Assembly: GCA_945906965.1 (NCBI GenBank)
Contig: CAMDRP010000019.1
Span: 1 to 37,752, forward strand
Source of the DNA: Opitutus sp. GAS368
GTDB lineage: Bacteria; Verrucomicrobiota; Verrucomicrobiia; Opitutales; Opitutaceae
Length of the DNA stretch: 37,752 nt
Reading direction: 5' to 3'
Positions 4,134 through 37,752 of the stretch are shown one piece after another; the stretch's first letter is position 1, and each line of letters opens with the position of its first letter. Made by a program: the position numbers and the translations under genes. A model generated the notes under the pieces. The model had not been told where the DNA came from, ran no database searches, and saw only the letters and a program-made list of their open reading frames with translations.

Positions 4134-7130
4134 ATGCTATCGTTTCTCTTTAAACGTTTCTCTGGCCGTCATTATCGTAAGTTTCTCGAAAAAAGCCGCC
4201 CCATCGTCGCGCGCATAAACGAGCTTGAGCTGAGCTACCAAGCCCTCACCGACGAGCAACTCCGCGCCAAGACCGACGAGTTCCGCGCTCGTATCGCCGC
4301 CGCCGCCGACAAACGCGTAGCGCTCGAGGCGATTCTGCCCGAGGCTTTCGCCACCGTCAAAAGCGCCGCCCGCCGCCTCAGTGGCCGCAAGGTCATCGTC
4401 TGCGATCACGAGCTCACTTGGGACATGGTCCACTTCGATGTGCAGCTCATCGGCGGCATGGCGATTCACGAAGGCAAGATCGCTGAAATGGCCACCGGCG
4501 AAGGCAAAACCCTCGTTTCCACGCTCCCGCTATATCTCAACGCCCTAACCGCGCGCAACACCCAGCTCGTCACCGTCAACGATTACCTCGCCCGGCGCGA
4601 TTCCGAGTGGATGGGCCACCTTTACAACTTCCTCGGCATCTCCGTGGGCTGCATCCAGCAACAAATGTCGCCCAACCTCCGGCGCGAGATGTATGGCCGC
4701 GACATCACTTACGGCACCGCCAGCGAATTCGGTTTCGATTACCTCCGCGATAATGGCATGGCCACGCGCAAAGAAGACCAGGTTCAGCGCGACTATTGGT
4801 TCTGTATTGTGGACGAAATCGATTCCATTCTCGTCGACGAAGCACGCACGCCGCTCATCATTTCCGGCCCGGCACCGATCGAACGTGAACAACCGTTCAC
4901 GCGCATCAAGCCGCCCATCGACCGGCTGGTTAACGACCAGACCCGCCTCTGTAATCGCTTCGTTTCGGATGCGATGGCCCTCCTTGAAAAACCCGCGCCC
5001 ACCCCTGAGGAACGCGATACCGCCGCCCGCAAGATGCTGCAGGTGAAAATGGGTAACCCCAACAACAAGCAGCTCCTCCGCCTCTTGGAGACGCCCGAGT
5101 GGCGCAAGCTCCTCGATAAAGTCGAAACGGACCTCAATTCCGACCTCAACAAAGAAGAGCTCTACCGCCTCAAGGAAGACCTCCTCTACGTCGTCGACGA
5201 GCGCCAGCATCAAGCCGACCTCACCGAAATTGGCCGCAAGCAACTTCGCCCCGAAAATGCCGACGCGTTCGTCTTGCCCGACCTCGCGACGGAATTTTCC
5301 GACATCGAGAAAGACACCGCCTCGACCCCCGAGCAACGCGAAGCCAAGAAGCTCGCCGCGCAGAACCACTATGCCGAAATCTCTGAGGAGATTCACGCTA
5401 TTTCCCAGCTCCTCCGCGCCTATTCCCTCTACGAGCGCGACGTCGAATACGTCGTCCAAGAAGGCAAGGTCATGATCGTTGATGAAAATACTGGTCGCGT
5501 CATGCCCGGTCGCCGTTGGTCCGACGGACTTCACCAAGCCGTCGAGGCCAAGGAAGGCGTCATGATCGAGCGCGAGACGCGCACCTACGCGACGATCACG
5601 ATTCAAAATTACTTCCGCATGTATGAGAAACTCGCGGGCATGACCGGCACCGCCGAGACCGAAGCTACCGAGTTCCAAGACATCTACCGCCTCGCCGTCC
5701 AAGTCATCCCGACGAACCGCCCGTGCATTCGCGTGGATCGCAACGACTCCATATTTAAAACCCGGCGCGATAAGTTTAACGCCGTCGTCAAAGAAATCGA
5801 AGCCGCCAACAAGCGCGGCCAGCCCGTGCTCGTCGGTACGGTTAGCGTCGAATCTTCCGAGGTGCTTTCCCGCATGTTGAAACGCGCCGGCGTCATTCAC
5901 GCCGTCCTCAACGCCAAATTCCACCAGCAAGAAGCCGAGATCGTCTCCCGCGCGGGCCAACGCAGTGCCGTCACCATCGCCACCAACATGGCCGGCCGCG
6001 GTACCGACATTAAGCTCGGTGAAGGCGTCCGCGAACTCGGCGGCCTCATGGTCATCGGCACCGAGCGCCATCAATCCCGCCGCATCGACCGCCAGCTGCG
6101 CGGTCGTTGCTCGCGTCAGGGCGACCCCGGTCTCACGAAGTTTTTCCTTTCGCTCGAAGACGAGCTGATGCGCCTTTTCCTTCAAGGTAATCTGGCCTCG
6201 CGCCTCATGGAAGGCTCGATGAAAGAAGGTGAAGAGCTCGAGCATCCGTGGCTCAACCGCTCGATCGAAAGCGCGCAGAAAAAAGTCGAGCAACAGAATT
6301 TCTCCGTCCGCAAACGCCTGTTGCAATACGACGACGTGCTCAACCAGCAGCGCGAAGTCATCTACGGTATTCGCAACTCAGCCATCCATACCGAGCGCCC
6401 TAAAGAGATCATCTTTGAGCAAGTCGGCGAAGAAATCATCTCGCGTCTCGCGGTCGCTGGTTTCGGTGAAAAAGGCGGCGCTACGGTCTCCGGCATCGAA
6501 AGCCTCGTCGGTTGGCTCAACACCCATTTCCCGATTAGCGTCAGTGCCACCGAACTCACAGGCAACGATCCCGAGGTGCTCAGCGCCAAGCTCGTCGAAC
6601 GCGTGAAGCAAGCCTACGCGGTCAAAGAATCCGTCGAGGTGCCCGATGCGCTTGGAGCGCTCGAGCGCTACGTTGTTATTAACGCCATCGATCACCACTG
6701 GCAGGAACATCTCACCGAGATGGAAAATCTCCGCCAGTCCGTCGGCCTGCGTAGCTACGGCCAGAAAGACCCGCTCGTGGAATACAAGAGCGAGGCCTAT
6801 AAATATTTCGAGGAGCTGATGACCAACGTGCGGCTCCAGATTTGCACCGGACTTTTCCGGAGCGCCTCCAACATCGAGAGTTTTGAAAACATGCTCTCGC
6901 TTCTGAGTCGCACCGCCCGCGCGGTCGGCCCCGCCGATGCGCCCGCGACGCCACGCTTGGAGACGAGCACGACCGTTACCGGCGGCGGCACCTCCGAAGG
7001 CGCCCCGGAGGCGGCGCCCGAGATCCAGTTGCCCAAAGTCACGATCCGCCGCGAGACGCCGAAAGTCGGCCGCAACGATCCGTGCCCCTGCGGCAGCGGG
7101 AAAAAGTTCAAAGCCTGTCACGGCGCGTGA
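4134..7130 (+). CDS. secA: Protein translocase ATPase SecA
   Basis: SecA is the ATP-driven motor that pushes preproteins through SecYEG at the inner membrane. This copy has 998 residues, about 100 more than the Escherichia coli protein. Visible parts in order: Walker A GEGKT (residues 122-126), [12 protein letters not shown], the DEID ... VDEARTPLI segment near residue 230, [19 protein letters not shown], the motif VI region [14 protein letters not shown], the helical scaffold/wing region, and a C-terminal SEC-C zinc motif [14 protein letters not shown] (about 984-997) that binds SecB or ribosomes. The extra length lies mostly at about 240-430, around the preprotein cross-linking domain, as in Bacteroidetes-like SecA. 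The stop overlaps the lnt start. Confidence 0.98.
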
Positions 7131-25465: not shown

Positions 25466-26113
25466 TTAACGTTTTTTCGTCCAGCCGTAATCGTCGGTGC
25501 GCATCGTCGTGGCTTGGACGTCGCGCTTGATGTAGGCGCCTGCGGCTTGGTCGCGGGCGCTGACCATACCGGCGGCATCGTTGAGCTCGCCGATGGTTTT
25601 GAGTCGTTCGTCTTCGGCGTATTGGGCGAGGGCGCGTTGTTCTTGATTCTGGCCGAAGAGCGGGATCGTGAAACGGTTGAGCGCGCGGCTGGCTTCGGTG
25701 CCGTATTTCTTCATGGCGATGGCGGCCATACCGGCCTGCGTGTTGATGTCGCGCTCGCGGAAGACCGGTGGCTTGGCCTCGCGCACGACGTAATCGGGCA
25801 GGCGAATGATGCCATTTTTCGGTTTATCAATTTCGCGCAGATCGGGCTGCTCCTCGATGGGCTTGGGCGGCGGCGCAGGTTTCGGGGGACTGTATTTGGG
25901 CATCGCGGCGGCGAGGGAGGCGGCGACGTCCGAGGAGATAGCGCGATCGCGTTTACGGACGGGCTGAGTCGGCGTGATCGACGACGTGGTGAGCGGCGTC
26001 GAAGCGGCGGTTTCGGCGGGAGCAGAATTAGTCTGCGCTGCGCCTACGGCGGGCAGGGTGGCCAAGCTAAGGACGACGAGGAGGCGGCGGGCGAGAGCGG
26101 GTCGACGTTTCAT
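25466..26113 (-). CDS. Secreted hypothetical protein, 215 aa
   Basis: The N-terminus MKRRPALARRLLVVLSLATLPAVGAAQ is a clear Sec signal peptide with cleavage expected after VGA-A (about residue 25). It is followed by a Thr/Ser/Pro-rich stretch, a Pro/Lys-rich segment (PKYSPPKPAPPPKP), the strand-like IIRLPDYVVREAKPPVF and a charged helical C-terminal half (ERDINTQAGMAAIAMKKYGTE). There are no cysteines. It is a likely periplasmic or outer-membrane-associated protein. No family is recognised. It lies downstream of proA on the same strand, 132 nt away, and convergent with the 100-residue gene. Confidence 0.72.
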   Translation of the reverse strand: MKRRPALARRLLVVLSLATLPAVGAAQTNSAPAETAASTPLTTSSITPTQPVRKRDRAISSDVAASLAAAMPKYSPPKPAPPPKPIEEQPDLREIDKPKNGIIRLPDYVVREAKPPVFRERDINTQAGMAAIAMKKYGTEASRALNRFTIPLFGQNQEQRALAQYAEDERLKTIGELNDAAGMVSARDQAAGAYIKRDVQATTMRTDDYGWTKKR

Positions 26114-26245
26114 GGCAGGGATGGAAAAGGAAAAAAGGCGACGGTTCCGGCAATGCTGAACAAAAAACCCTGGTACGAAAGCAGCGGGAGATCAAGTGCC
26201 CTCGCACGGTTATTAAACCTGCCGTTCGCTCGGCATTAGGCGATA

Positions 26246-27520
26246 TTAGTCCCGCACTTGCCCCGTGCCTTCGACGAGGAATTTGTACGTGCAAAGTTCG
26301 CGCAGGCCCATGGGGCCGCGGGCGTGGAGGCGGTCGGTGCTGATGCCGATCTCGGCGCCGTAGCCAAATTCAAAACCATCAGTGAAGCGCGTGCTCGCGT
26401 TCCAATAAACCGTCGCGCTGTCCACGGTGGCGAGGAAATGGCGCGCAGCAGTTTCGTCGGCCGTGATGATTGCGTCGCTGTGTTGGGAACTGTCGCGGTT
26501 GATCGTCGTGATGGCGTTATCGAGGGAATCGACGACGCGGACGGCGATGATGTAATCGAGGAATTCAGTCGTGTAATCGGCGGACGTCGCGGGCGTCGTT
26601 GCGATCTGCGCGCGGGCGAGAATCGCAGTGCTGGCGGCGTCGCAGCGGAGTTGGACCTTGTGCGCGAGGAGCGCGCGCGCGACGGCGGGGAGAAAGGTTT
26701 CCGCGACGCGGGCGTGGACGAGAAGTTGTTCGGCGGCGTTGCAGGCGCTGGGGCGGGAGGCTTTGGCGTTGACGGCGATCGCCTCGGCCATGGCAAGGTC
26801 GGCGGCGGCATCGACGTAGATGAAGCACACGCCCTGGAAATGTTTGATGACGGGAATCGTGGAATTTTCCGCGACGAAGCGGATGAGGCTCTCGCCGCCA
26901 CGGGGAATCAGACAATGCACCAGCTTATCGAGCTTGAGGAGCACGTTAAGCGCGGCGCGGTCGGTGGTCGGGATGAGTTGAACGGCGTCGGAGGGAAGGC
27001 GCGCAGCGATGAGCGCGGCGGTGATGAGCGCGGCGAGGGCGGTGTTGGTGTGGAAACACTCTTTGCCGCCGCGGAGGATGGCGGCGTTGCCGGATTTCAG
27101 GCAGAGGACGGCGCAGTCGATGGTGACGTTCGGGCGCGCCTCGTAGATGATGCCGATGACGCCGATGGGCACGCGGACTTTGCGGATGCGCAGGCCGTTG
27201 GGTCGCGTGGTTTCTTCCAAAAGATCGCCGACGGGATCGGGCAGTGCGATGACGGCGCGGACGGAGGCGGCGAGTTGCGTGAGGCGGGTGGGTGTGAGCG
27301 TGAGACGGTCGCGGGCGGCGACGGAGAGGGCGGCGGCTTCCGGTGAGGCGAGGTCTTGGGCGTTGGCGGCGAGGAGCGCGGGGTGGGCGCCGTCGATAAG
27401 CTCTGCGAGTTGGGCTAGGGCGGCGTTTTTCGCGGCGGTGGGCGTGGTCGCAAGCACGAGCGACGCAGCGCGGGCGCGTTGGGCGAGGGCGGTGACGAGA
27501 CTCGTAAGATCGGCGGTCAT
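26246..27520 (-). CDS. proA: Gamma-glutamyl phosphate reductase
   Basis: ProA reduces gamma-glutamyl phosphate with NADPH to glutamate semialdehyde in proline synthesis. The 424 residues fit the family. Landmarks: RPNGLRIRKVRVPIGVIGII, YEARPNVTIDCAVLCLKSGN, AILRGGKE, the catalytic Cys in ASRPSACNAAEQLLVH, the RFTDGFEFGYGAEIGIST segment and the GPMGLRELCTYK C-terminus. The ATG at 27520 (MTADLTSLV) is preceded at 11 nt by AAGG. In-frame starts further up (to 27628) give a Ser-rich extension without homology. No proB is nearby. The upstream spacer contains an AT-rich inverted repeat that may be its promoter region. Confidence 0.95.
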   Translation of the reverse strand: MTADLTSLVTALAQRARAASLVLATTPTAAKNAALAQLAELIDGAHPALLAANAQDLASPEAAALSVAARDRLTLTPTRLTQLAASVRAVIALPDPVGDLLEETTRPNGLRIRKVRVPIGVIGIIYEARPNVTIDCAVLCLKSGNAAILRGGKECFHTNTALAALITAALIAARLPSDAVQLIPTTDRAALNVLLKLDKLVHCLIPRGGESLIRFVAENSTIPVIKHFQGVCFIYVDAAADLAMAEAIAVNAKASRPSACNAAEQLLVHARVAETFLPAVARALLAHKVQLRCDAASTAILARAQIATTPATSADYTTEFLDYIIAVRVVDSLDNAITTINRDSSQHSDAIITADETAARHFLATVDSATVYWNASTRFTDGFEFGYGAEIGISTDRLHARGPMGLRELCTYKFLVEGTGQVRD

Positions 27521-27643
27521 TTTTGATAATACCTTGTCGATCTGGCGTGCGGAAGACACGGAAAAACTCATCAGTCTTAACTGGACTACATTCGGACATT
27601 GGGCCGTCAATTCGATGCAACTGAGCATCCGAGCCCTGCTTTA

Positions 27644-27687
27644 TTAAAGCTTTAAATGCCGAATAAATTATATCATATTTTCGGCAT
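27644..27687 (-). promoter_or_regulatory. AT-rich inverted repeat and -10-like box upstream of proA
   Basis: The arms ATGCCGAA (27656-27663) and TTCGGCAT (27680-27687) enclose 16 nt that hold, on the minus strand, an exact TATAAT (complement 27667-27672). A 12-bp palindrome TTAAAGCTTTAA (27644-27655) adjoins it. No good -35 is visible. It could be an operator-covered promoter for proA or a weak terminator of the kinase gene upstream. Confidence 0.35.
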
Positions 27688-27728
27688 CTTACCTATGAAA
27701 AAGGCTCATGGAGTACTACGGAAGTCGA

Positions 27729-27744
27729 TTGAGCAAAGGCTCAA
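27729..27744. other. Short hairpin downstream of the kinase gene
   Basis: TTGAGC / GCTCAA form a perfect 6-bp stem with a 4-nt loop (AAAG on the plus strand), 42 nt downstream of the kinase stop codon. No T-run follows on the minus strand, so it is at best a transcript-end-stabilising structure. Confidence 0.25.
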
Positions 27745-27785
27745 GATTAAGACGGGCAACTGGGCTGGGTTAAGGCGTTGATATA

Positions 27786-28787
27786 TTATTTAGTCGCGAG
27801 CGCGGTGGCGCGGGCGCGGACGGCGGGCCAGTGGGATTCGGGAATGGCCGGGCCGATGTGTTGGACGCATTCGGCGCCGAGCACGGAGCCGAGGGCACCC
27901 GCGGCGGCGAGGTTCCAGCCGCGTAGGTAGCCGTAAAGAAATCCAGCGGCCCACGAGTCGCCGGCGCCGGTCGTGTCTATAGCTTGGGCCACGCGGACGG
28001 GCTCGATGCGGTGTAGCTCGGAGCCGCGGGCAATCCACGCGCCGTCTTTACCCATTTTCACGGCGGCGATGCCGCCGTGGCTGGCGAGGCGGCGGGCGAG
28101 TTCGTCGTAGGCGGGGGTTTTGGTTTCGTAAAGGGCGTGGATCTCGTCTTCGTTGGCGAACACGACGTGGACGCCGGCGTCGATCTGGCGTTTGATCCAG
28201 TCGCGCGCGACGTTGACGACTTCGAAGGAGGCGAGGTCGATGCTGATCGTGCAACCGGCGGCGCGGGCGGAATCGACGACGGCGGTCGCGAGGGCGGGGT
28301 TGAACATCAGGTAGCCTTCGATGTGGGCGTGGCGGCTATCGGCGAAATCGACGGGGCTGATTTCTTCGGGCGCGAGGGTCATCGCGGCGCCGAGGCAGGT
28401 GCGCATGGTGCGCTGGCTGTCGGGGGTGATGAGGGAGAGGCAACGGGCGTTGGGGAGCGGAGCGCGTTTGAAACGGGAGCCGTCGACGCCGTGCTCGAGC
28501 ATGTTTTGGTGATAGGTGTCGGCGGTCTCGTCGGAGCCGATTTTACCGAGGTAGCGGGTGCGCAGGCCGAGGCGGGCGGCGGCGACGGTGGTGTTGGCGG
28601 CGGAGCCGCCGGGGGCGCGGACAGGGCTGGCGTGGAGTTGGGTGACGAGGCGGTGCATCTCGTCGGCGTCGACGAGGACCATGCCGCCTTTTTCGCCGCG
28701 GACGTGTTGGGCGAGAAAATCGTCGGAAACGCGGGCGAGCAGATCCATGATGGGGTTACCGGCGCCGATGAGATCGTAGGAGTGCAT
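27786..28787 (-). CDS. PfkB-family carbohydrate/adenosine kinase
   Basis: This 333-residue ribokinase-fold enzyme opens with SYDLIGAGNPIMDLLARV, followed by the substrate-binding GGSAANTTVAAARLG and GKIGSDETAD of the PfkB family, and the C-terminal DTTGAGDSWAAGFLYG with the catalytic Asp and anion hole. The overall pattern (PNARCLSLITPDSQRTMRT, IEGYLMF, FANEDEIHALY) resembles the bacterial adenosine-kinase-like subgroup that uses adenosine or a related nucleoside. Ribokinase or fructokinase activity cannot be excluded. It is flanked by proA (265 nt downstream, same strand) and the small conserved gene upstream (58-nt gap). Confidence 0.88.
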   Translation of the reverse strand: MHSYDLIGAGNPIMDLLARVSDDFLAQHVRGEKGGMVLVDADEMHRLVTQLHASPVRAPGGSAANTTVAAARLGLRTRYLGKIGSDETADTYHQNMLEHGVDGSRFKRAPLPNARCLSLITPDSQRTMRTCLGAAMTLAPEEISPVDFADSRHAHIEGYLMFNPALATAVVDSARAAGCTISIDLASFEVVNVARDWIKRQIDAGVHVVFANEDEIHALYETKTPAYDELARRLASHGGIAAVKMGKDGAWIARGSELHRIEPVRVAQAIDTTGAGDSWAAGFLYGYLRGWNLAAAGALGSVLGAECVQHIGPAIPESHWPAVRARATALATK

Positions 28788-28845
28788 TTTTATTAGGAAG
28801 ACGTTTAAGGTGTTAGTTTTGAATAATGTAGAAAAGGAAACCGAC

Positions 28846-29229
28846 TCAGGCGGAGACGATGAGGTTGGTGGCCAAAATGGGCTCGTCGTCGATTTCGATG
28901 ATCAACGAGTAATCGCCGGGTTGGGGGAACGTGAGGTTACGGATCTCGTTGATCAGATTGATGCGGTCGAGGGGGCTGTTGGCTTCGAAGGGGCGCTCGA
29001 TGAGGGGTTGGACTTGGGTGGAGTCTAGGCCCATAGAGATGCGCATCTTGTGCTGGCCAGGGGAGCAATCGGTGAGCGTCATGAACCAGACCATAAACGG
29101 GTGGGTGACGGGAAAGTGGTGGGCCTTGATGTTGGAGAAGACGCCTAAAATGGTGTGTTTACCAGAGCCGGGGTCGAGGTGGACACCGTCGCAGGTGAGC
29201 CAACAGAGCAGCTGGGGCTTGGATTGCAT
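28846..29229 (-). CDS. Small conserved protein (DUF6941-like), 127 aa
   Basis: This 127-residue protein reads like a single beta-sandwich: LLCWLTCDGVHLDPGSGKHT, ILGVFSNIKAHHFPVTHPF, VWFMTLTDCSPGQHKM, NEIRNLTFPQPGDYSLIIEI and LATNLIVSA. The order (CD-x-x-x-D-x-x-x-GK-x-T-I-L-G-x-F ... FP ... LTD ... FP-x-PG-x-Y) matches a family seen in planctomycetes and verrucomicrobia that I believe is DUF6941; the number is from memory. No function is known. The ATG at 29229 (MQSKPQLLCW) is used; an upstream start at 29322 adds 31 Arg/Pro-rich residues and would overlap the divergent gene. Confidence 0.75.
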   Translation of the reverse strand: MQSKPQLLCWLTCDGVHLDPGSGKHTILGVFSNIKAHHFPVTHPFMVWFMTLTDCSPGQHKMRISMGLDSTQVQPLIERPFEANSPLDRINLINEIRNLTFPQPGDYSLIIEIDDEPILATNLIVSA

Positions 29230-29309
29230 GGGGCGGAGTTGGGCGGCGGGGGCGGGACGGGGCAAATCATTTTGCTGGCGGCGGCGGGCGGGGCGGGCGA
29301 GTAACAGGT

Positions 29310-29516
29310 ATGGTGTTTGCACTGCAAAAAGTCTCGCCGACGGTGGTGGAGTCGCTGGCGGATTATCCGCCGTGGTTGGTGGTGGCGTGCGCGACGATCG
29401 TGGCGGCGGGGTTGATATGGCTTTTGGTCAAGGCGCTCAAATGGGCGCTTTGGGTGCTTTTGATCGTGGTTTTGGTGGTGGGCGCGGCTTTGGCGGTAAA
29501 GTTAGGGCTAGGATAA
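29310..29516 (+). CDS. Small membrane protein, 68 aa
   Basis: This 68-residue protein has two hydrophobic segments: about residues 22-40 (PWLVVACATIVAAGLIWLL) and 45-66 (ALWVLLIVVLVVGAALAVK), joined by a short basic turn. It probably sits in the inner membrane as a hairpin. No family is recognised. It lies 58 nt upstream of pyrG on the same strand and diverges from the DUF6941-like gene. Its small size leaves some chance that it is not a gene, but the hydrophobic layout is typical of a real membrane peptide. Confidence 0.6.
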   Translation: MVFALQKVSPTVVESLADYPPWLVVACATIVAAGLIWLLVKALKWALWVLLIVVLVVGAALAVKLGLG

Positions 29517-29565
29517 TGCGTCGCGGGAGAGCTTTTGCTTGCGCGCAGCGAAGGCGGGCGTTTAA

Positions 29566-31251
<1,686 letters not shown>

Positions 31252-31255
31252 TTCT

Positions 31256-32050
31256 GTGCTCTACGATCCCTCGAAGTTGTTGATCATCGCTGGACCGTGT
31301 TCGCTTGAGAACGAGGGCGTGTGTCGTGCGGTCGCCGAGTCGCTCGTGCGCATCAACCGCGAGCTGCCCGCGCTGAAAATCATCTTTAAGGGCTCCTTCG
31401 ACAAAGCCAACCGCACTTCGCTCGGCGGCGCGCGCGGCACGGGCATCAACGAGGGCTTGAAACTCCTCGCGTTGATCAAGCGCGACTATGGGTTTCCCGT
31501 TTTGACTGACATCCACGAAAGCGCGCAGGTCGCGCAGGTCGCCGCGGTGTGCGAGGTCGTGCAGATCCCGGCGTTTCTGTGCCGGCAGACGGATTTGTTG
31601 CTCGCGGCGGCTGCGACGGGCCGGACGGTCAACGTCAAGAAAGGCCAGTTTCTCTCGCCGCAGGAAATGGTGCACGTCACCGGCAAACTCCGCGAAGGCG
31701 CCGCCCAAGAAATCTGGCAGACCGAGCGCGGCACGACTTTCGGTTATCAAAACCTCGTTGTGGATATGCGTTCGTTTTCCATCATGCGCCAAAACGGTTA
31801 TCCCACCGTCTTCGACGCCACGCACTCGGTGCAACTCCCCGGCGCCGGCGGCGGCAAGAGCAGCGGCCAACGCGAATTCGTTGCGCCCCTCGCCAAGGCG
31901 GCACTCGCCGCGGGCGCGGACGGACTATTCATCGAGACGCATCCCGATCCGGCCAACGCGATCAGCGACGGTCCCAACATGATCGCCCTCGTCGACTTGC
32001 CCAAGCTCCTGGCGCAGTGTCTGGCCGTGTGGCAGACCGTGCGGGCCTAA
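31256..32050 (+). CDS. kdsA: 3-deoxy-8-phosphooctulonate synthase (KDO 8-P synthase)
   Basis: KdsA condenses phosphoenolpyruvate with arabinose 5-phosphate to KDO-8-phosphate for lipopolysaccharide. The 264 residues show [75 protein letters not shown] and [18 protein letters not shown], the standard active-site loops. The start is a GTG at 31256, 4 nt after the pyrG stop. Its presence implies an LPS-bearing outer membrane. It is followed by a 78-nt gap to the lipoyl-protein gene. Confidence 0.96.
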
Positions 32051-32112
32051 AATCGAGCCTGCGCGCCCCCGTGCGCTCCCTTGACCAAGTCCGGGGCGGC
32101 GCCACACTCAGT

Positions 32113-32118
32113 TATAAT
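32113..32118 (+). promoter_or_regulatory. -10-like TATAAT box close to the lipoyl-protein start
   Basis: An exact TATAAT ends 10 nt before the ATG at 32129, so transcription from it would give a nearly leaderless mRNA. The only -35-like hexamer, TTGACC at 32081, is 26 nt away, which is too far for a standard spacer. Weak evidence. Confidence 0.25.
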
Positions 32119-32128
32119 TAAATCCCTG

Positions 32129-32596
32129 ATGGCTACCTTTATCATCGACGTTCCCGTGCCCTCCATGGGCGCGACCGTGAGCGAACTTATCGTCGTATCC
32201 CTCAAAACCAAACCCGGCGAGCGTGTGGCTAAAGGCCAGAAGATCGCGGAGTTGGAGAGCGATAAATCCATCTTCGAATACGAGGCCCCCGCCGACGGCA
32301 CCGTGCTCGCACTGCCGGTGAAACCGGGCGAAGTGCTGCAATCAGGCGCGCTGTTTCTCAAATTAGAAACCGAGGATGCCAGCCTGCGTCACCTTGAGTC
32401 CAAGACCGGTGCGGCGCTCGTGGCTCCGACGGCGGCTAAATCTGCAGCTGAGCTCATCTGGACGCCCCGCGCCACCAAACTCGCCCAAGAAGCTGGACTC
32501 GATCCAGCGACACTCACCGATATCGAGGCGACCGGCCCCGGTGGTCGCGTCTCGGGCGATGATGTCGCCCGCTTGCTGGCGCGGCGTCAGGTCTAA
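32129..32596 (+). CDS. Lipoyl-domain / E3-binding-domain protein without E2 catalytic domain
   Basis: This 155-residue protein is laid out like the N-terminal third of a 2-oxoacid dehydrogenase E2. A lipoyl domain (1-80: VPSMGATVSELIVVS ... ESDKSIFEYEAP) carries Lys46 as the expected lipoylation site. A short linker (about 85-108) follows, then a peripheral-subunit (E3/E1) binding domain (109-152: TPRATKLAQEAGLDP ... GPGGRVSGDDVARLL). The ~230-residue acyltransferase domain is absent, and the natural stop is followed by a KAS III gene 24 nt later. It could be an X-protein-like carrier or deliver acyl groups to that KAS III. The start ATG at 32129 (MATFIIDVPVPSMG) is clear; an upstream TTG at 32081 is rejected. 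Confidence 0.9.
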   Translation: MATFIIDVPVPSMGATVSELIVVSLKTKPGERVAKGQKIAELESDKSIFEYEAPADGTVLALPVKPGEVLQSGALFLKLETEDASLRHLESKTGAALVAPTAAKSAAELIWTPRATKLAQEAGLDPATLTDIEATGPGGRVSGDDVARLLARRQV

Positions 32597-32620
32597 TTTT
32601 CAGCTTAAAATTTCCCTCGA

Positions 32621-33616
32621 TTGAACTCTCAAGCAACGGTCTGCATCGCCGGCGTCGGACACGCGGCCCCCGCCAAAATCCGCGCCAATAGTGAAATTCT
32701 GAAAGCCTTCCCCGATCGCACGGAAGAAGAGATTGTCCGGCTCACAGGCATCCGCGAGCGCCGCTACGCCGCCGACGATGAGAGCGCGACCGACCTCGCC
32801 GTGATCGCGGTGCAAAACGCGCTCGCGCAAGCCGGCATGAAGGCGGAGCAGATGGATGGCATCATCATGGCCACGCTCATTCCCGATCAACCGGTGCCGG
32901 CGATGGCGAGTGATCTCGCGCGGCGACTGGGGATTCCGCGCGTGTTGGCGTTTGATTTGAACGCCGCGTGTTCGGGTTGGTTGTATGCGCTCGAGGTCGG
33001 GCGATCGTTTATCATTTCAGGCACCGCAAAGAACGTGATCGTGGTGACAGCGGAGTTGTTGTCGCGGATTACTAATCCGCAGGATCACGAGACGGCGTTT
33101 CTTTTCGGCGACGGCGCCGGCGCGGCGATTTTGACCGCGGGCGCGGGCGGGCATCGCTTGCATCGCATGGGCTTGGGCGGCGACGCGGAGCAATTTGAGG
33201 CGATCCAGCGCAAGGGCGGTGGCGCCCGGATGCCGTGGCCTGTGGCGGCCGATGGCCACGCGGAACATTTTTACCTCCAGATGAACGGCACCTCGGTGTT
33301 CAAGCACGCGGTGGTTGGCTTCGCGGAGCAGATCGAGCAGACGCTTGCACGGGAAAACCTAAAGCCCGAGGACATCGCCTGGGTCGTGCCGCATCAGGCT
33401 AACGAGCGCATTTTAAAAGCCGTGAGCAAGCGCGTGGGGATACCGTACGAAAAATTCGTGATGACCATTTCCAAGTACGGCAACACGAGCGCGGCCAGCG
33501 TCTCGATGGCGCTGGGCTGGGCGGCTGAAGAAGGGATTTTCGCGGAGGGCGACCGGATTATTTTTTGTAGCGTTGGCGCTGGGCTGACGTTTGCCGGCGG
33601 TTTGTTGGAGTGGTGA
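32621..33616 (+). CDS. 3-oxoacyl-ACP synthase III family protein (KAS III)
   Basis: This 331-residue condensing enzyme is like FabH, which joins an acyl-CoA starter to malonyl-ACP. The Cys-His-Asn triad is present: Cys117 (NAACSGWLYA), His258 (VPHQANERI) and Asn288 (KYGNTSAAS). Also seen are the N-terminal GVGHAAP, the TGIRERRYA segment, the GDGAGAAIL loop and the terminal GAGLTFAGGLLEW. The only plausible start is TTG at 32621, suggesting low translation or coupling to the lipoyl gene that ends 24 nt upstream. No acpP, fabD or fabG is adjacent, unlike housekeeping fabH, so a special starter unit supplied from the neighbouring lipoyl protein is plausible. Confidence 0.9.
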   Translation: MNSQATVCIAGVGHAAPAKIRANSEILKAFPDRTEEEIVRLTGIRERRYAADDESATDLAVIAVQNALAQAGMKAEQMDGIIMATLIPDQPVPAMASDLARRLGIPRVLAFDLNAACSGWLYALEVGRSFIISGTAKNVIVVTAELLSRITNPQDHETAFLFGDGAGAAILTAGAGGHRLHRMGLGGDAEQFEAIQRKGGGARMPWPVAADGHAEHFYLQMNGTSVFKHAVVGFAEQIEQTLARENLKPEDIAWVVPHQANERILKAVSKRVGIPYEKFVMTISKYGNTSAASVSMALGWAAEEGIFAEGDRIIFCSVGAGLTFAGGLLEW

Positions 33617-33661
33617 GCGCGCTCTAAGGTTGCGCTGCGCGAGACCGTCTGAGGTAGGCGC

Positions 33662-33692
33662 AAAAAAAGGCCGCCGGAAGATCCGGCGGCCT
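33662..33692 (-). terminator. Strong intrinsic terminator of the M14 peptidase gene
   Basis: A perfect 11-bp stem AGGCCGCCGGA / TCCGGCGGCCT with a 3-nt loop (33668-33692) is followed on the minus strand by seven Ts (plus-strand As at 33662-33668). It lies 30 nt past the peptidase stop. It may also slow read-through from the convergent KAS III gene. Confidence 0.88.
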
Positions 33693-33721
33693 CGATGCCA
33701 AGGATGGTGACCTGGGAGTGA

Positions 33722-36556
33722 TTACAACTTCGTCGGCGCCGCGGCACCGAGGTAGAGGCCGTTGAAGAATAGCTTGAACGTGCTGTGTGGCGTGGCGCGG
33801 AACGTGGCTTCAAAGCCGATCATCACGAGCTTGCCTTGGCCGATGGAGGCTTGGGTGGCGAGTTCGCCGCCGTAGAGCAAATCTTGGCCGACCGCCCAAC
33901 CGCTGTAGAGCGGCTGCTTGCTTTCAAACCAAGCGACCTTGCTGGCCTTCACCATGGAGCCGGCGGGACGACTGAAGACCGGGCTGGTGTCGAAGAACAC
34001 GTACCCTTGCTCCGGCATACCGAAGGCGAGCGGATCTTGGTTATTGAAGTTCACATTCAGCACGGAGCCGGGGATGTAGAACTTCTCGGGGGGTAAGGGG
34101 ACGTCTTTGCCGTCGGCGCCTTTTTCCACGAGGTGGTTTTTGACGGGCAGGCCCATCGCTTCGCCGATGCTGGCGGAGGCGCCGAGTGCTAGGACGGTGC
34201 CACCGGCCTCGACGAAGGTCTTCAGCGCGGGCACGCTCTTGGCGCTGGTGACGGTGCCGAGCATGGAGCGGAATTCTTCCGGGATGCTCTCCGGCGAAGG
34301 ACCCGCGGCGCGGGCGTAACCGCGACCGCCGCGGCCTTCGGCGTAGGTGCCGCTGGGGAACGCGATCACATCGAAACTCGACTTGAGGTTGCCGGCATCG
34401 AGCACCTGCGGGAACACGACTTCGAAGTTGAATTCGTATTGCTCAAGCATCCAGCGCGTCCAGCCGGAGGGCATCGAACCGCCGTAGGTATCGACGAGGC
34501 CGATGCGGATGGGTTTAAGTTTGTAGGCTTCGCCGGTGGGTTTGGCGGCGACGGCGTAGGCTGGCACGCCGAGTTCCTGGGCGGCTTTTTCGAGGATCGG
34601 GAGGACGGCGGGCGCGGCGGGAATCCAGAGTGTGCCGGTGCCGAGTTTTTGACCGGCGACGGTTTGCTCAGCGGCGAGCCAGTAAACGGCCGCGTTGGCC
34701 TTGAGGAGACGGTTGGTGATGATGATGGCGTCGTTCATCTTGTGGCTCACGAGGTAACCGGCGGCGTTGGCGACGCTGGTGACGGTGGCGGGCGACGGTT
34801 TCTCGGTTTTAAACGCGAGCTTAGTGAACGGGCCGTCGAAGCCTTCCATGACGCGGTCGAAGTTCACGCCCATCTGAGTTGCGAGCGTCCAGCCGGTGAT
34901 GTCGTAGGGGCGCTTCGGCGGGCCGCCGGGATAGGCGAAGTCCATCGGGTGATCTTGCGCTTCAAACATGTCGAGCACGGCAGGGCGGAAGGCCTGAGCG
35001 GTCTTCACGACGTAGGAGCCGATGGGATAGTTTTTACCCGCGACGGTGAAGGCGGCAGTCGCTTTGTGGACATCGACGCCGTGTTTGAGGAGCACGTTGA
35101 TGAATTTAACGGCGGTGGCGAAATCATCCTGGCCGGCCGAGATGATGTAGCCGCGCGGATCGCGGTAAGCCGGATCGTTGAGGACTTTTTCGTAGAGCTC
35201 GCTCGGTAGGGAAGGCACGTTTAAGCGGCTGTCGCTGGCGGCGGCGCGAAGGCCGCGACCGGCGGCGGGGGCATCGTCGGGGGCGGCGGCTTTGGCGGCC
35301 TCGTTGAGGGCGTTGATGCGCTTGGGGGTGATGGTCCAGGAATCTTTGCTGCCGCGCTCGATGGAGCGTTTGCCCATGCCGTAGATATTAAAGAGCAGGG
35401 TCTCGCGGTTGCGGGAGGCGTAGTCCATGACGGCGCGTTCGACTTCAATCATGTAGTCGATGGATTGGCGGTAGTGCCAGACTTGGGGCTTGAGGGGGAG
35501 GGGCCAGTCGCCGGTGGGTAGTTGTTTCTCGGCGATGAGCGGCACGGCCATCGGCGTGGGGTTACCGATGATTTCGGTGAGCAGGCCGATCTGATTGTGG
35601 AAATACGTGGCGGTGCGCATGCCGCCGTTCCACCAGGTGGAGTAGGGGGCGGCGGAGCGCATGGCGGAGCCGCCCATGCCTTTAGAGATGAGGCGGGCGT
35701 GCATCGCGGCGCCGACTTGCTCGATGCCGATCGGGATCATGGCATCGAACACATAGTTGAACGGATCGCGGAAGGGCGGGATAAAGATGACCTGACCGGC
35801 GGGACCGGTCTGGTGCACGTTGTGCATGATCTGCGGATTCCACTCGATGAAAAGGACGCGGTTTTGATTCGTCGTCTCGGGCATATTCATCGTGATCGAG
35901 TCGCGGTTGTTATCGTGACCGATGTATTTGTGGTAAAGGCGCGGGAGTGTCTGGAAAGTGCGCTTGGTGACGTCTTCTTCGCGCATGTACCAGTTGGCCA
36001 CGAGCTCGACGCCATCGGGATTTGGGATGGCCATCAGCAAGATCACGTCGTTGAGGAAACGCAGGGTTTCCGCATCGGTGCGGCTGGACATTTGGTAAAC
36101 CATCTCGGCGAGCGATTGAGAGTTCACCGTCTCCGTGGCGTGGAGGCCGCCGTCGATCCAGACGATGGCTTTGCCTTCTTCGGCGAGTTTCTTCGCTTCG
36201 TCGTCGGTGAGGCCCTCGGCGCGGGAGAGGCGCACGGAGATGTTGCGGTAGTATTCGAGTTTCTTGTGATTCTCGGGCGAGGTGATGATCGCCATGTATT
36301 GGGGGCGACCTTCGGCGGTGTTGCCGATGCTGACGACCTTCAGGCGATCACTCTCGGTCTCCCACTTTTTCAAGAGCGCGGAGATCTGCGTGTAGTTGGC
36401 CATCTTGTAATCCTCGCCAATGGTGAACCCGATGAGGTCCTTGGCCGGCGTGATTTTGTTGGGTGCGGGCGCCGCGATGAGCGCGGTGGCCGTGATGAGA
36501 ATCAGTCCCAGTTGTTTGAGACCGAAGTGACGTAGCGTCAGTCGGGTGTTATTCAT
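33722..36556 (-). CDS. Secreted M14-family zinc metallopeptidase, 944 aa
   Basis: A signal peptide (LKQLGLILITATALIAAPA, residues ~14-31) precedes a carboxypeptidase-like domain. Zinc ligands are His139 and Glu142 (GGLHATET) with His248 (MHNVHQTGPAG), and the catalytic Glu is probably Glu328 (IGLLTEIIG). ANPDG-like AIPNPDGVEL (residues 176-185) fits the M14 fold. The rest is a middle domain and a C-terminal class-I-glutaminase-like segment (IRIGLVDTYGGSMPSGWTRW, FDVIAFPSGTYAEG, FVEAGGTVLALG) as in other long bacterial M14 proteins. It is likely exported to degrade peptides. The ATG at 36556 is used; an upstream start at 36625 adds 23 residues before the signal peptide. A terminator follows. 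Confidence 0.92.
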   Translation of the reverse strand: MNNTRLTLRHFGLKQLGLILITATALIAAPAPNKITPAKDLIGFTIGEDYKMANYTQISALLKKWETESDRLKVVSIGNTAEGRPQYMAIITSPENHKKLEYYRNISVRLSRAEGLTDDEAKKLAEEGKAIVWIDGGLHATETVNSQSLAEMVYQMSSRTDAETLRFLNDVILLMAIPNPDGVELVANWYMREEDVTKRTFQTLPRLYHKYIGHDNNRDSITMNMPETTNQNRVLFIEWNPQIMHNVHQTGPAGQVIFIPPFRDPFNYVFDAMIPIGIEQVGAAMHARLISKGMGGSAMRSAAPYSTWWNGGMRTATYFHNQIGLLTEIIGNPTPMAVPLIAEKQLPTGDWPLPLKPQVWHYRQSIDYMIEVERAVMDYASRNRETLLFNIYGMGKRSIERGSKDSWTITPKRINALNEAAKAAAPDDAPAAGRGLRAAASDSRLNVPSLPSELYEKVLNDPAYRDPRGYIISAGQDDFATAVKFINVLLKHGVDVHKATAAFTVAGKNYPIGSYVVKTAQAFRPAVLDMFEAQDHPMDFAYPGGPPKRPYDITGWTLATQMGVNFDRVMEGFDGPFTKLAFKTEKPSPATVTSVANAAGYLVSHKMNDAIIITNRLLKANAAVYWLAAEQTVAGQKLGTGTLWIPAAPAVLPILEKAAQELGVPAYAVAAKPTGEAYKLKPIRIGLVDTYGGSMPSGWTRWMLEQYEFNFEVVFPQVLDAGNLKSSFDVIAFPSGTYAEGRGGRGYARAAGPSPESIPEEFRSMLGTVTSAKSVPALKTFVEAGGTVLALGASASIGEAMGLPVKNHLVEKGADGKDVPLPPEKFYIPGSVLNVNFNNQDPLAFGMPEQGYVFFDTSPVFSRPAGSMVKASKVAWFESKQPLYSGWAVGQDLLYGGELATQASIGQGKLVMIGFEATFRATPHSTFKLFFNGLYLGAAAPTKL

Positions 36557-36874
36557 AAGAGAATGGATGTTTGCGGAAAGGGGTGAGGCGGAGAAATTAA
36601 CTCTGAAAAGTACTCGCGCACACAATCCGGAAACGTTGCGCGCGCATGATTACATGAAGCGCTTAGAATTAAATTAACCTAGGCGTGGCGCATTTGAGGA
36701 CAAGGATCGCGCTTTAGCAGGACGTATGCCGCTGCGGAAAGATGGCTTTGCATCAATTATAAAGCCTCTCGGTCTTTGGTATCCGCCTTGCTGAGCTTGA
36801 TTAAGAGGCGAGGGCGTGACGTTTTGTGTTCGCTCGCGTCTTCGTCTGCATTCCCGTTTTTTCTATTTGAACCC
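36557..36874. other. Divergent intergenic region between peptidase and moxR
   Basis: These 318 bases hold no gene I can support. They should carry the two divergent promoters. One near-perfect inverted repeat is visible, CGCTTAG (36660-36666) and CTAGGCG (36679-36685) around an AT-rich 12-nt core, about 105 nt from the peptidase start. It could be an operator. A TATAAA near 36760 has no matching -35. Confidence 0.4.
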
Positions 36875-37752
36875 ATGATCACCGGTCCCATCTGGTCGCA
36901 AAAACTCCGCGTCGAAATCGCCAAAGCCGTCTTGGGCAACGAGCACGTCATCGAGCGCTTGCTCGTCGCGCTCCTCGCCAATGGCCACATTCTCCTCGAG
37001 GGCATGCCGGGTCTCGCGAAAACCTTACTCATTAAATCCCTCGGCTCCGCCCTCGGTGTGCACTGTGACCGCATCCAGTTCACGCCCGATCTACTACCGA
37101 GCGACGTCGTCGGTACGATGATCTTCCAGCCTAACACCGGTGAGTTCACCGCGCACCGTGGCCCGATCTTCGCTAATCTTGTCCTCGCCGACGAAATCAA
37201 CCGCGCCCCCGCCAAGGTTCAAAGCGCGCTCCTTGAGGCCATGCAGGAGAAACAGGTCACCATCGGTGGCAAAACCCACGCTCTGCCTAAACCGTTTTTC
37301 GTGATGGCGACCCAGAATCCTGTAGAACAAGAAGGCACCTACGCGCTCCCCGAGGCGCAGATGGATCGTTTCATTTTCAAACTCCTCGTCGATTATCCCT
37401 CGGCCGAAGAAGAGACGATTTTGATGGAGCGTTGGGGCCAAGTTACCCAGCAGCCCGAGCTCGTCGCCGTCTCAAGCGGTGAAGAATTGCTCGAGCTGCG
37501 CAAGGCGGTCGACCGCATCTACGTTTCGCCCGAGATCAAAGCCTACATACTCAACCTCGTTCGCGCTACGCGCGCCCTCGCGGTGCCGTTGGCTGATGGT
37601 TCACGCACGCTCAATTTTGGCGCATCGCCGCGCGCCTGTCTCGCCCTTTATCAAGCCAGTCGCGCGCTCGCGTGGTTGCGTGGACAAGATCACGTCTCGC
37701 CCGATCTCGTCCAGGACGTGTTCCCCGATGCTCTGCGGCACCGCGTGAATCT
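36875..37752 (+). CDS. MoxR-family AAA+ ATPase (3' end beyond the window)
   Basis: The open frame of 292 codons runs off the right edge. It is a MoxR-type AAA+ ATPase, a chaperone-like family that works with VWA-domain and DUF58 proteins, often in envelope stress or respiratory-complex assembly. Motifs: Walker A GMPGLAKT (43-50), FTPDLLPSDVVG, the MoxR insert FTAHRGPIFANLVLADEINR with the Walker B Asp-Glu, APAKVQSALLEAMQE, sensor 1 ATQNPVEQEGTY and ALPEAQMDRF. The C-terminal lid includes FGASPRACLAL with the sensor 2 Arg. The usual DUF58 and VWA partner genes would be expected just downstream. Confidence 0.95.
   Translation, partial: MITGPIWSQKLRVEIAKAVLGNEHVIERLLVALLANGHILLEGMPGLAKTLLIKSLGSALGVHCDRIQFTPDLLPSDVVGTMIFQPNTGEFTAHRGPIFANLVLADEINRAPAKVQSALLEAMQEKQVTIGGKTHALPKPFFVMATQNPVEQEGTYALPEAQMDRFIFKLLVDYPSAEEETILMERWGQVTQQPELVAVSSGEELLELRKAVDRIYVSPEIKAYILNLVRATRALAVPLADGSRTLNFGASPRACLALYQASRALAWLRGQDHVSPDLVQDVFPDALRHRVN

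Follow-up and report, generated by a model that had tools for sequence, protein, structure and literature searches.

The window considered in this work, that is, the whole stretch of DNA analyzed, comprises 37,752 nt of Opitutus sp. GAS368 (Opitutaceae; assembly GCA_945906965.1, contig CAMDRP010000019.1), and all its features described below are on the forward strand. An open reading frame at positions 32129–32596 codes for a protein of 155 aa in which Pfam matches revealed a lipoyl domain (PF00364, Biotin_lipoyl, residues 7–78, positions 32147–32362; 53.1 bits, cut-off 22.1) and a peripheral-subunit-binding domain (PSBD; PF02817, E3_binding, residues 112–146, positions 32462–32566; 34.3 bits, cut-off 23.7). 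The candidate lipoyl-lysine, Lys46 (codon 32264–32266), lies within an ELESDKS motif. Neither the 2-oxoacid_dh acyltransferase domain (PF00198) nor an E2-like inner domain, as in protein X, was matched in this protein by the Pfam scan. Its assignment as a glycine cleavage H protein (GcvH) was rejected, PF01597 reaching only 19.7 bits vs. a cut-off of 22.2. The stop of the lipoyl gene is separated by 24 nt from the TTG start of a gene (32621–33616) coding for a KAS III of 331 aa (KS3), which presented the triad Cys117, His258, and Asn288 and passed the cut-offs of the NCBIfam models NF006829 (332 bits, cut-off 249) and TIGR00747 fabH (307 bits, cut-off 292). All these data confirmed the original prediction as regards a lipoyl and PSBD protein without acyltransferase domain followed by a KAS III whose triad is intact. 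The prediction had also placed the pair away from housekeeping fab genes, and no fab gene adjoining it was recognized by eye among the open reading frames of positions 26000–37752. A plsX-fabH pair (by eye) was found elsewhere in the genome of the window, on contig C111, which ruled out the lipoyl-KS3 pair as the housekeeping FabH. Two more KAS III-like genes of this genome (L003 and L004, on contigs C24 and C9) gave 69.8 and 30 bits.

Upstream of the pair, genes for CTP synthase (pyrG, 29575–31251) and Kdo-8-phosphate synthase (kdsA, 31256–32050) were recognized by eye. Of 20 regions analyzed around the gene, 19 contained KS3, 16 pyrG, and 12 kdsA, and both upstream genes also accompanied the lipoyl gene in all 13 loci where it stands alone, always in the order kdsA-lipoyl gene. 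The lipoyl and KAS III genes of the window are in one frame and two in-frame TAA codons lie between them (32594–32596 and 32606–32608); in sister genera this stretch is read through as a single chain. The shared frame and the two TAA codons are thus consistent with a split fusion gene.

A search of 57 related genomes with the 155-aa protein yielded 30 loci, 12 of which (L033–L044) coded for one-chain proteins with the lipoyl domain at the N-terminus and the KAS III at the C-terminus; two further one-chain fusions were L067 and L068. A profile of 14 fusions was used to search a phylum sample of 387 genomes, scoring up to three candidates per genome. Values above 650 bits were obtained in 20 of the 36 genomes of the same family, 15 of these 20 displaying a single open frame, and the best match in the remaining genomes of the sample did not exceed 303 bits, thus defining two clearly separate groups. 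Among the best 80 loci of a genome scan, 23 of 41 named Opitutia loci were one-chain fusions, two Pelagicoccus isolates among them; fusion counts from the three sets overlap. A shared frame for the lipoyl and KAS III parts was seen in 11 of 28 split loci. The pair looked for by the original prediction in other genomes was therefore conserved, and fused in many relatives; chance adjacency was ruled out by the occurrence of one-chain fusions in many genera. Since the fused form occupied deep branches of a midpoint-rooted pyrG tree (29 of 34 loci given, with one long row, G043), the pair of the window was read as a split fusion. One genome (G334) carried two fused genes, on contigs C34 and C66 (874.6 and 723.9 bits), and two metagenome-assembled genomes titled Akkermansia muciniphila (L185 and L188) carried a fusion of the Opitutaceae type, the record names being possibly wrong.

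Three E1 loci over the cut-off and two E2s were found in the genome of the window. In one of these loci, PDH-type alpha and beta genes stand beside a complete E2; in another, a SucA-like E1 is accompanied by a SucB-like E2 and an E3; the third, on contig C181, is an alpha-beta fusion of 680 aa without E2 (hereafter the orphan E1), followed by kdsC-like and lptC-like genes (by eye). As this contig has only 3,504 bases, little of the locus is visible; the order orphan E1, kdsC-like, lptC-like was kept in 7 out of 7 other genomes. Both halves of the system were linked to Kdo/lipopolysaccharide genes (L261–L267, L054, and positions 31256–32050 of the window), the orphan E1 by its kdsC- and lptC-like neighbors and the lipoyl gene by the frequent proximity of kdsA. 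Presence of the lipoyl protein and of the E1, judged by us from widely separated bit scores, coincided in the 42 good genomes among the 57 relatives (completeness of 90% or more and contamination of 5% or less): 25 of them had the two proteins, 17 had neither, and no discordant genome was observed. In the 15 genomes below that line, the E1 appeared without the lipoyl protein in four (G004, G008, G023, and G026). Similarly, in the phylum sample both proteins were found in 34 of the 36 genomes of the window's family and neither in the other two. The E1 and the fusion were on one contig in G024, G334, and G355 (around 12, 16, and 18 kb between them, respectively), and the 20 regions scanned around the pair in the window's family gave no E1 match. 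Further E1 genes were present in several genomes. Among solved structures, the alpha half of the orphan E1 gave its top score against a branched-chain E1 alpha and the beta half was closest to a PDH E1 beta; the protein reached no cut-off of the NCBIfam models.

Lipoyl-KAS III proteins were also found in other phyla. Among the best 80 loci, at least 11 from Planctomycetota, Fibrobacterota, and Sumerlaeota presented a one-frame lipoyl-KAS III of around 440 aa (14 distant loci were examined, of which L212, L217, and L218 were not fusions; L215 and L216 are near copies, and the other 25 loci matched in the KAS III part only). In 10 of these 11 distant fusions an E1 gene was directly upstream on the same strand, and the 11th begins at the contig edge. 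The upstream E1s were 37–43% identical to the orphan E1 and were confirmed as one open frame in 5 of the 10 loci. Pfam found lipoyl and KAS III domains and no PSBD match in 5 out of 5 distant fusions scanned, and PF00198 was absent from all seven fusions scanned. The distant lipoyl motif was SAK instead of SDK.

Phylogenetic trees gave matching groupings for both partners. In the KAS III tree (14 of 41 further KS3, 11 of 33 further FabH, all 11 distant, and 15 other KAS III rows), a branch with 100/99 support separated 26 lipoyl-linked rows from 28 rows of FabH and other KAS III, so that the KAS III does not group with the plsX-linked FabH. In the E1 tree, eight orphan E1s and 10 operon E1s formed one group with 100/99 support, separated from 20 other E1s; a long-branch warning affected L286 and L292, rows outside the orphan and operon groups. 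Thus, the E1 genes that the original prediction had pointed to as possible neighbors stand next to the distant fusions and group with the orphan E1 of the window's genome. The nearest other E1s came from a family of the same class (f23), which we take to be possibly Akkermansiaceae; an E2 of the usual kind comes after them, found next to the E1 in L295 and L296 and scanned for domains in L296. Because these E1 relatives precede an ordinary E2, the KAS III stands in the position of the E2.

Residues contacting CoA in Escherichia coli FabH include T28, W32, R36, and R151 (PMC4606726). None of W32, R36, and R151 was kept in any of 42 KS3 rows, where the three positions were occupied by E/A/D, L/V/I/T, and H/Y/K/P, respectively, whereas all three were kept in 34 out of 34 FabH rows; the position of T28 was R, K, or M in the family's KAS III proteins. 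Rows are distinct sequences and not genomes, with the window genome's own KS3 and own FabH counted twice each, and a row was considered FabH when it matched better the own plsX-linked FabH, hits with stops or short spans being removed. F304 was replaced by V in the 42 KS3 rows and was F in 33 of 34 FabH rows. In the KAS III of the window, E37 and L41 (counted by hand) take the places of W32 and R36. In contrast with these changes, the Cys-His-Asn triad and the ACP-patch residues K214 and R249 were kept in all 42 KS3 and 34 FabH rows. Judging from the alignment, KAS III proteins from the family of the window have lost the CoA-holding residues and kept the triad and the ACP patch. All 11 distant fusions presented Y at W32, V at R36, R at K214, and V at F304, and eight of them R/K at R151; the change of their CoA site is therefore only partial, given the Y at W32 and the R/K kept at R151. 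In a predicted model of the fusion L168 (30 rows, mean pLDDT 81.8), lipoyl, PSBD, and KAS III regions were joined by low-confidence linkers, and the modeled KAS III matched the FabH structures 4ryb and 1hn9 (E. coli) with target-normalized TM-scores of 0.94 to 0.95.

Fourteen genomes had the lipoyl protein and the E1 but no KS3 orthologue. This state requires at least three changes on the pyrG tree, so the lipoyl protein and the E1 should have another acceptor there. Two genomes scored as KS3-negative, G227 and G215, contained other, weaker KAS III-like genes (192 and 136 bits, respectively). Of the 13 loci with a lone lipoyl gene, five were inspected by eye, and no neighbor replacing KS3 was recognized in them; a FabG-like reductase gene (by eye) comes after the lipoyl gene of one genome without KS3 (G388, L250, positions 5402–6247). 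All 32 family genomes surveyed had at least two E2 matches each, and 13 of these genomes had an E2 match in the same long frame as an E1 match (PF00676 and PF00198), corresponding to an E1-lipoyl-E2 chain in 2 out of 2 cases scanned for domains; in G021 this protein is one of only two E2s. Nine of the 14 genomes without KS3 were surveyed: seven had the single-chain E1-E2 and two of genus g50 (G388 and G397) did not. Two of 20 KS3-containing genomes carried the single-chain E1-E2, vs. 11 of 13 lacking KS3 (Fisher P = 2.6e-5, kinship ignored, in 33 genomes picked by us).

Fatty acid profiles were considered in relation to these genes. Lacunisphaera limnophila contains 48.6% of iso-C15:0 as reported in PMC5303756, and branched acids are also described in PMC10288369 for Coraliomargarita, which is outside Opitutaceae. 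In the genome of L. limnophila (G320), the lipoyl protein, the orphan E1, and KS3 were not found, and one single-chain E1-E2 was present. These two cases indicated that the lipoyl, KS3, and E1 genes are not required for branched acids in general. Among the strains of the order with data in PMC12193912, anteiso-C15:0 was a major acid in seven of eight, some of them outside Opitutaceae; no measured profile was matched to a genome carrying the pair.

E2 proteins carry the acyl group on a lipoyl-lysine and hand it over to CoA through their catalytic domain, and FabH uses acyl-CoA as substrate. By sequence, the domains, the fusions, the adjacency of the E1 in three phyla, the matching groupings of E1 and KAS III, and the loss of CoA residues are all observed, and we consider that a hand-over from E1 to the lipoyl arm, then to the KAS III and to malonyl-ACP, is probably their best explanation. 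The split lipoyl-PSBD-KAS III protein would take the place of the E2 in a 2-oxoacid dehydrogenase complex, as the original prediction had proposed for the KAS III and the genome comparison supports. The orphan E1 would decarboxylate a 2-oxoacid and reductively acylate Lys46; the active-site cysteine of the KAS III would then take the acyl group straight from the dihydrolipoyl arm and condense it with malonyl-ACP, so that a fatty acid, or possibly an acyl chain of lipid A, would be started without free acyl-CoA. The E3, recruited by the PSBD, would reoxidize the lipoyl arm. The transfer reaction, the E3 step, and the lipoylation of Lys46 are what we infer from these data. A branched-chain 2-oxoacid seems the somewhat favored substrate, and the neighboring kdsA, kdsC, and lptC genes leave room for a role in lipid A. 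Several observations weigh against the hand-over: the 14 genomes without KS3, the branched acids of L. limnophila in spite of the missing genes, the partial change of the CoA site and the SAK motif in the distant fusions, the position of the E1 away from the pair in the window's family, the further E1 genes of several genomes, and the PDH-like beta half of the orphan E1. In a broader sense, it appears likely that these proteins form a class of 2-oxoacid dehydrogenase complexes in at least four bacterial phyla, with a KAS III instead of the E2 acyltransferase, in which oxidative decarboxylation would be joined to the first C–C bond of fatty acid synthesis in a CoA-free manner.

The same lipoyl and PSBD domains are those of protein X, the E3-binding protein of PDH complexes, and the 155-aa protein could likewise tether KS3 to an ordinary complex, KS3 then using acyl-CoA made by the normal E2. 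The PSBD is a docking domain, and a complete E2 elsewhere in the genome, which the original prediction had counted against itself if the protein behaved only as an X-protein, does exist twice, beside the PDH-type and the SucA-like E1. Nevertheless, G043, a genome of another family that is 96% complete, has the E1 and the fusion and no PF00198 match, which disfavors a mere X-protein; moreover, protein X differs in its E2-like inner domain, the CoA-holding residues are gone in all 42 KS3 rows, an E1 without E2 co-occurs with the protein and adjoins the fusion in other phyla, and the distant fusions scanned gave no PSBD match. Taken together, these data make tethering to an ordinary complex improbable.

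A direct hand-over could also operate with another product, acetyl from pyruvate or another acyl group priming a special chain such as the 3-hydroxy acyl of lipid A. The position of kdsA near the pair and near the lone lipoyl gene, and of kdsC- and lptC-like genes by the E1 in the window's genome and the seven others, would fit such a product, but these Kdo/lipid A neighbors may be incidental and the alpha half of the E1 is nearest to a branched-chain E1 alpha among solved structures. In addition, the complementary distribution of KS3 and the single-chain E1-E2, whose own substrate is likewise putative, suggests a supply of primers in bulk, and we regard this variant as possible but rather doubtful. 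On the other hand, the lipoyl protein and the E1 might serve a different acceptor, for instance the E2 domain of another complex, with KS3 as an opportunistic addition. The 14 genomes keeping both proteins without KS3, and the three or more changes that the pyrG tree requires, point in that direction; the fused state on deep branches of the midpoint-rooted pyrG tree and the E1-lipoyl-KAS III trio found together in three other phyla argue against it, and KS3 as an opportunistic addition seems quite unlikely. Transfer of the acyl group from the lipoyl arm to the KAS III remains the preferred reading. If true, a fatty acid would be started without CoA by two textbook machines joined in one protein, including a KAS III in which the donor site is altered; this could explain the priming of branched fatty acids in family members without the single-chain E1-E2 and would provide a compact module to produce branched chains.

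No lipoyl-KAS III system was found in the CC0, CC BY, and CC BY-SA literature searched, and one may still be published. The KAS III of the window resembles FabH in its fold, triad, K214/R249 ACP patch, and fabH model score, and differs from it in the W32, R36, R151, and F304 positions, in its lipoyl partner or fusion, and in its separate side of the tree. With the E2 of 2-oxoacid dehydrogenases the system shares the lipoyl domain and PSBD, an E1 partner, and, as regards the distant loci, a gene placed after that of the E1, but it presents a KAS III instead of a 2-oxoacid_dh match. In the synthesis of naphthyridinomycin and quinocarcin, NapB/NapD and QncN/QncL pass a lipoyl-borne C2 unit to an acyl carrier without CoA, as proposed here for an acyl unit; their acceptor is an ACP, vs. 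the cysteine of the KAS III in the pair of the window. The single-chain E1-lipoyl-E2 of L. limnophila and G072 and the E1 alpha, E1 beta, and E2 of f23 also have the E1 fused with or beside the lipoyl domain, and differ in ending in an ordinary acyltransferase, presumably making acyl-CoA. The L. limnophila protein (L275) contains E1 alpha, E1 beta, lipoyl, and E2 in one chain of 1042 aa, with no PSBD match, and a chain of 1051 aa in G027 (L294, contig C14) comprises E1 alpha, E1 beta, and lipoyl parts with no E2 match.
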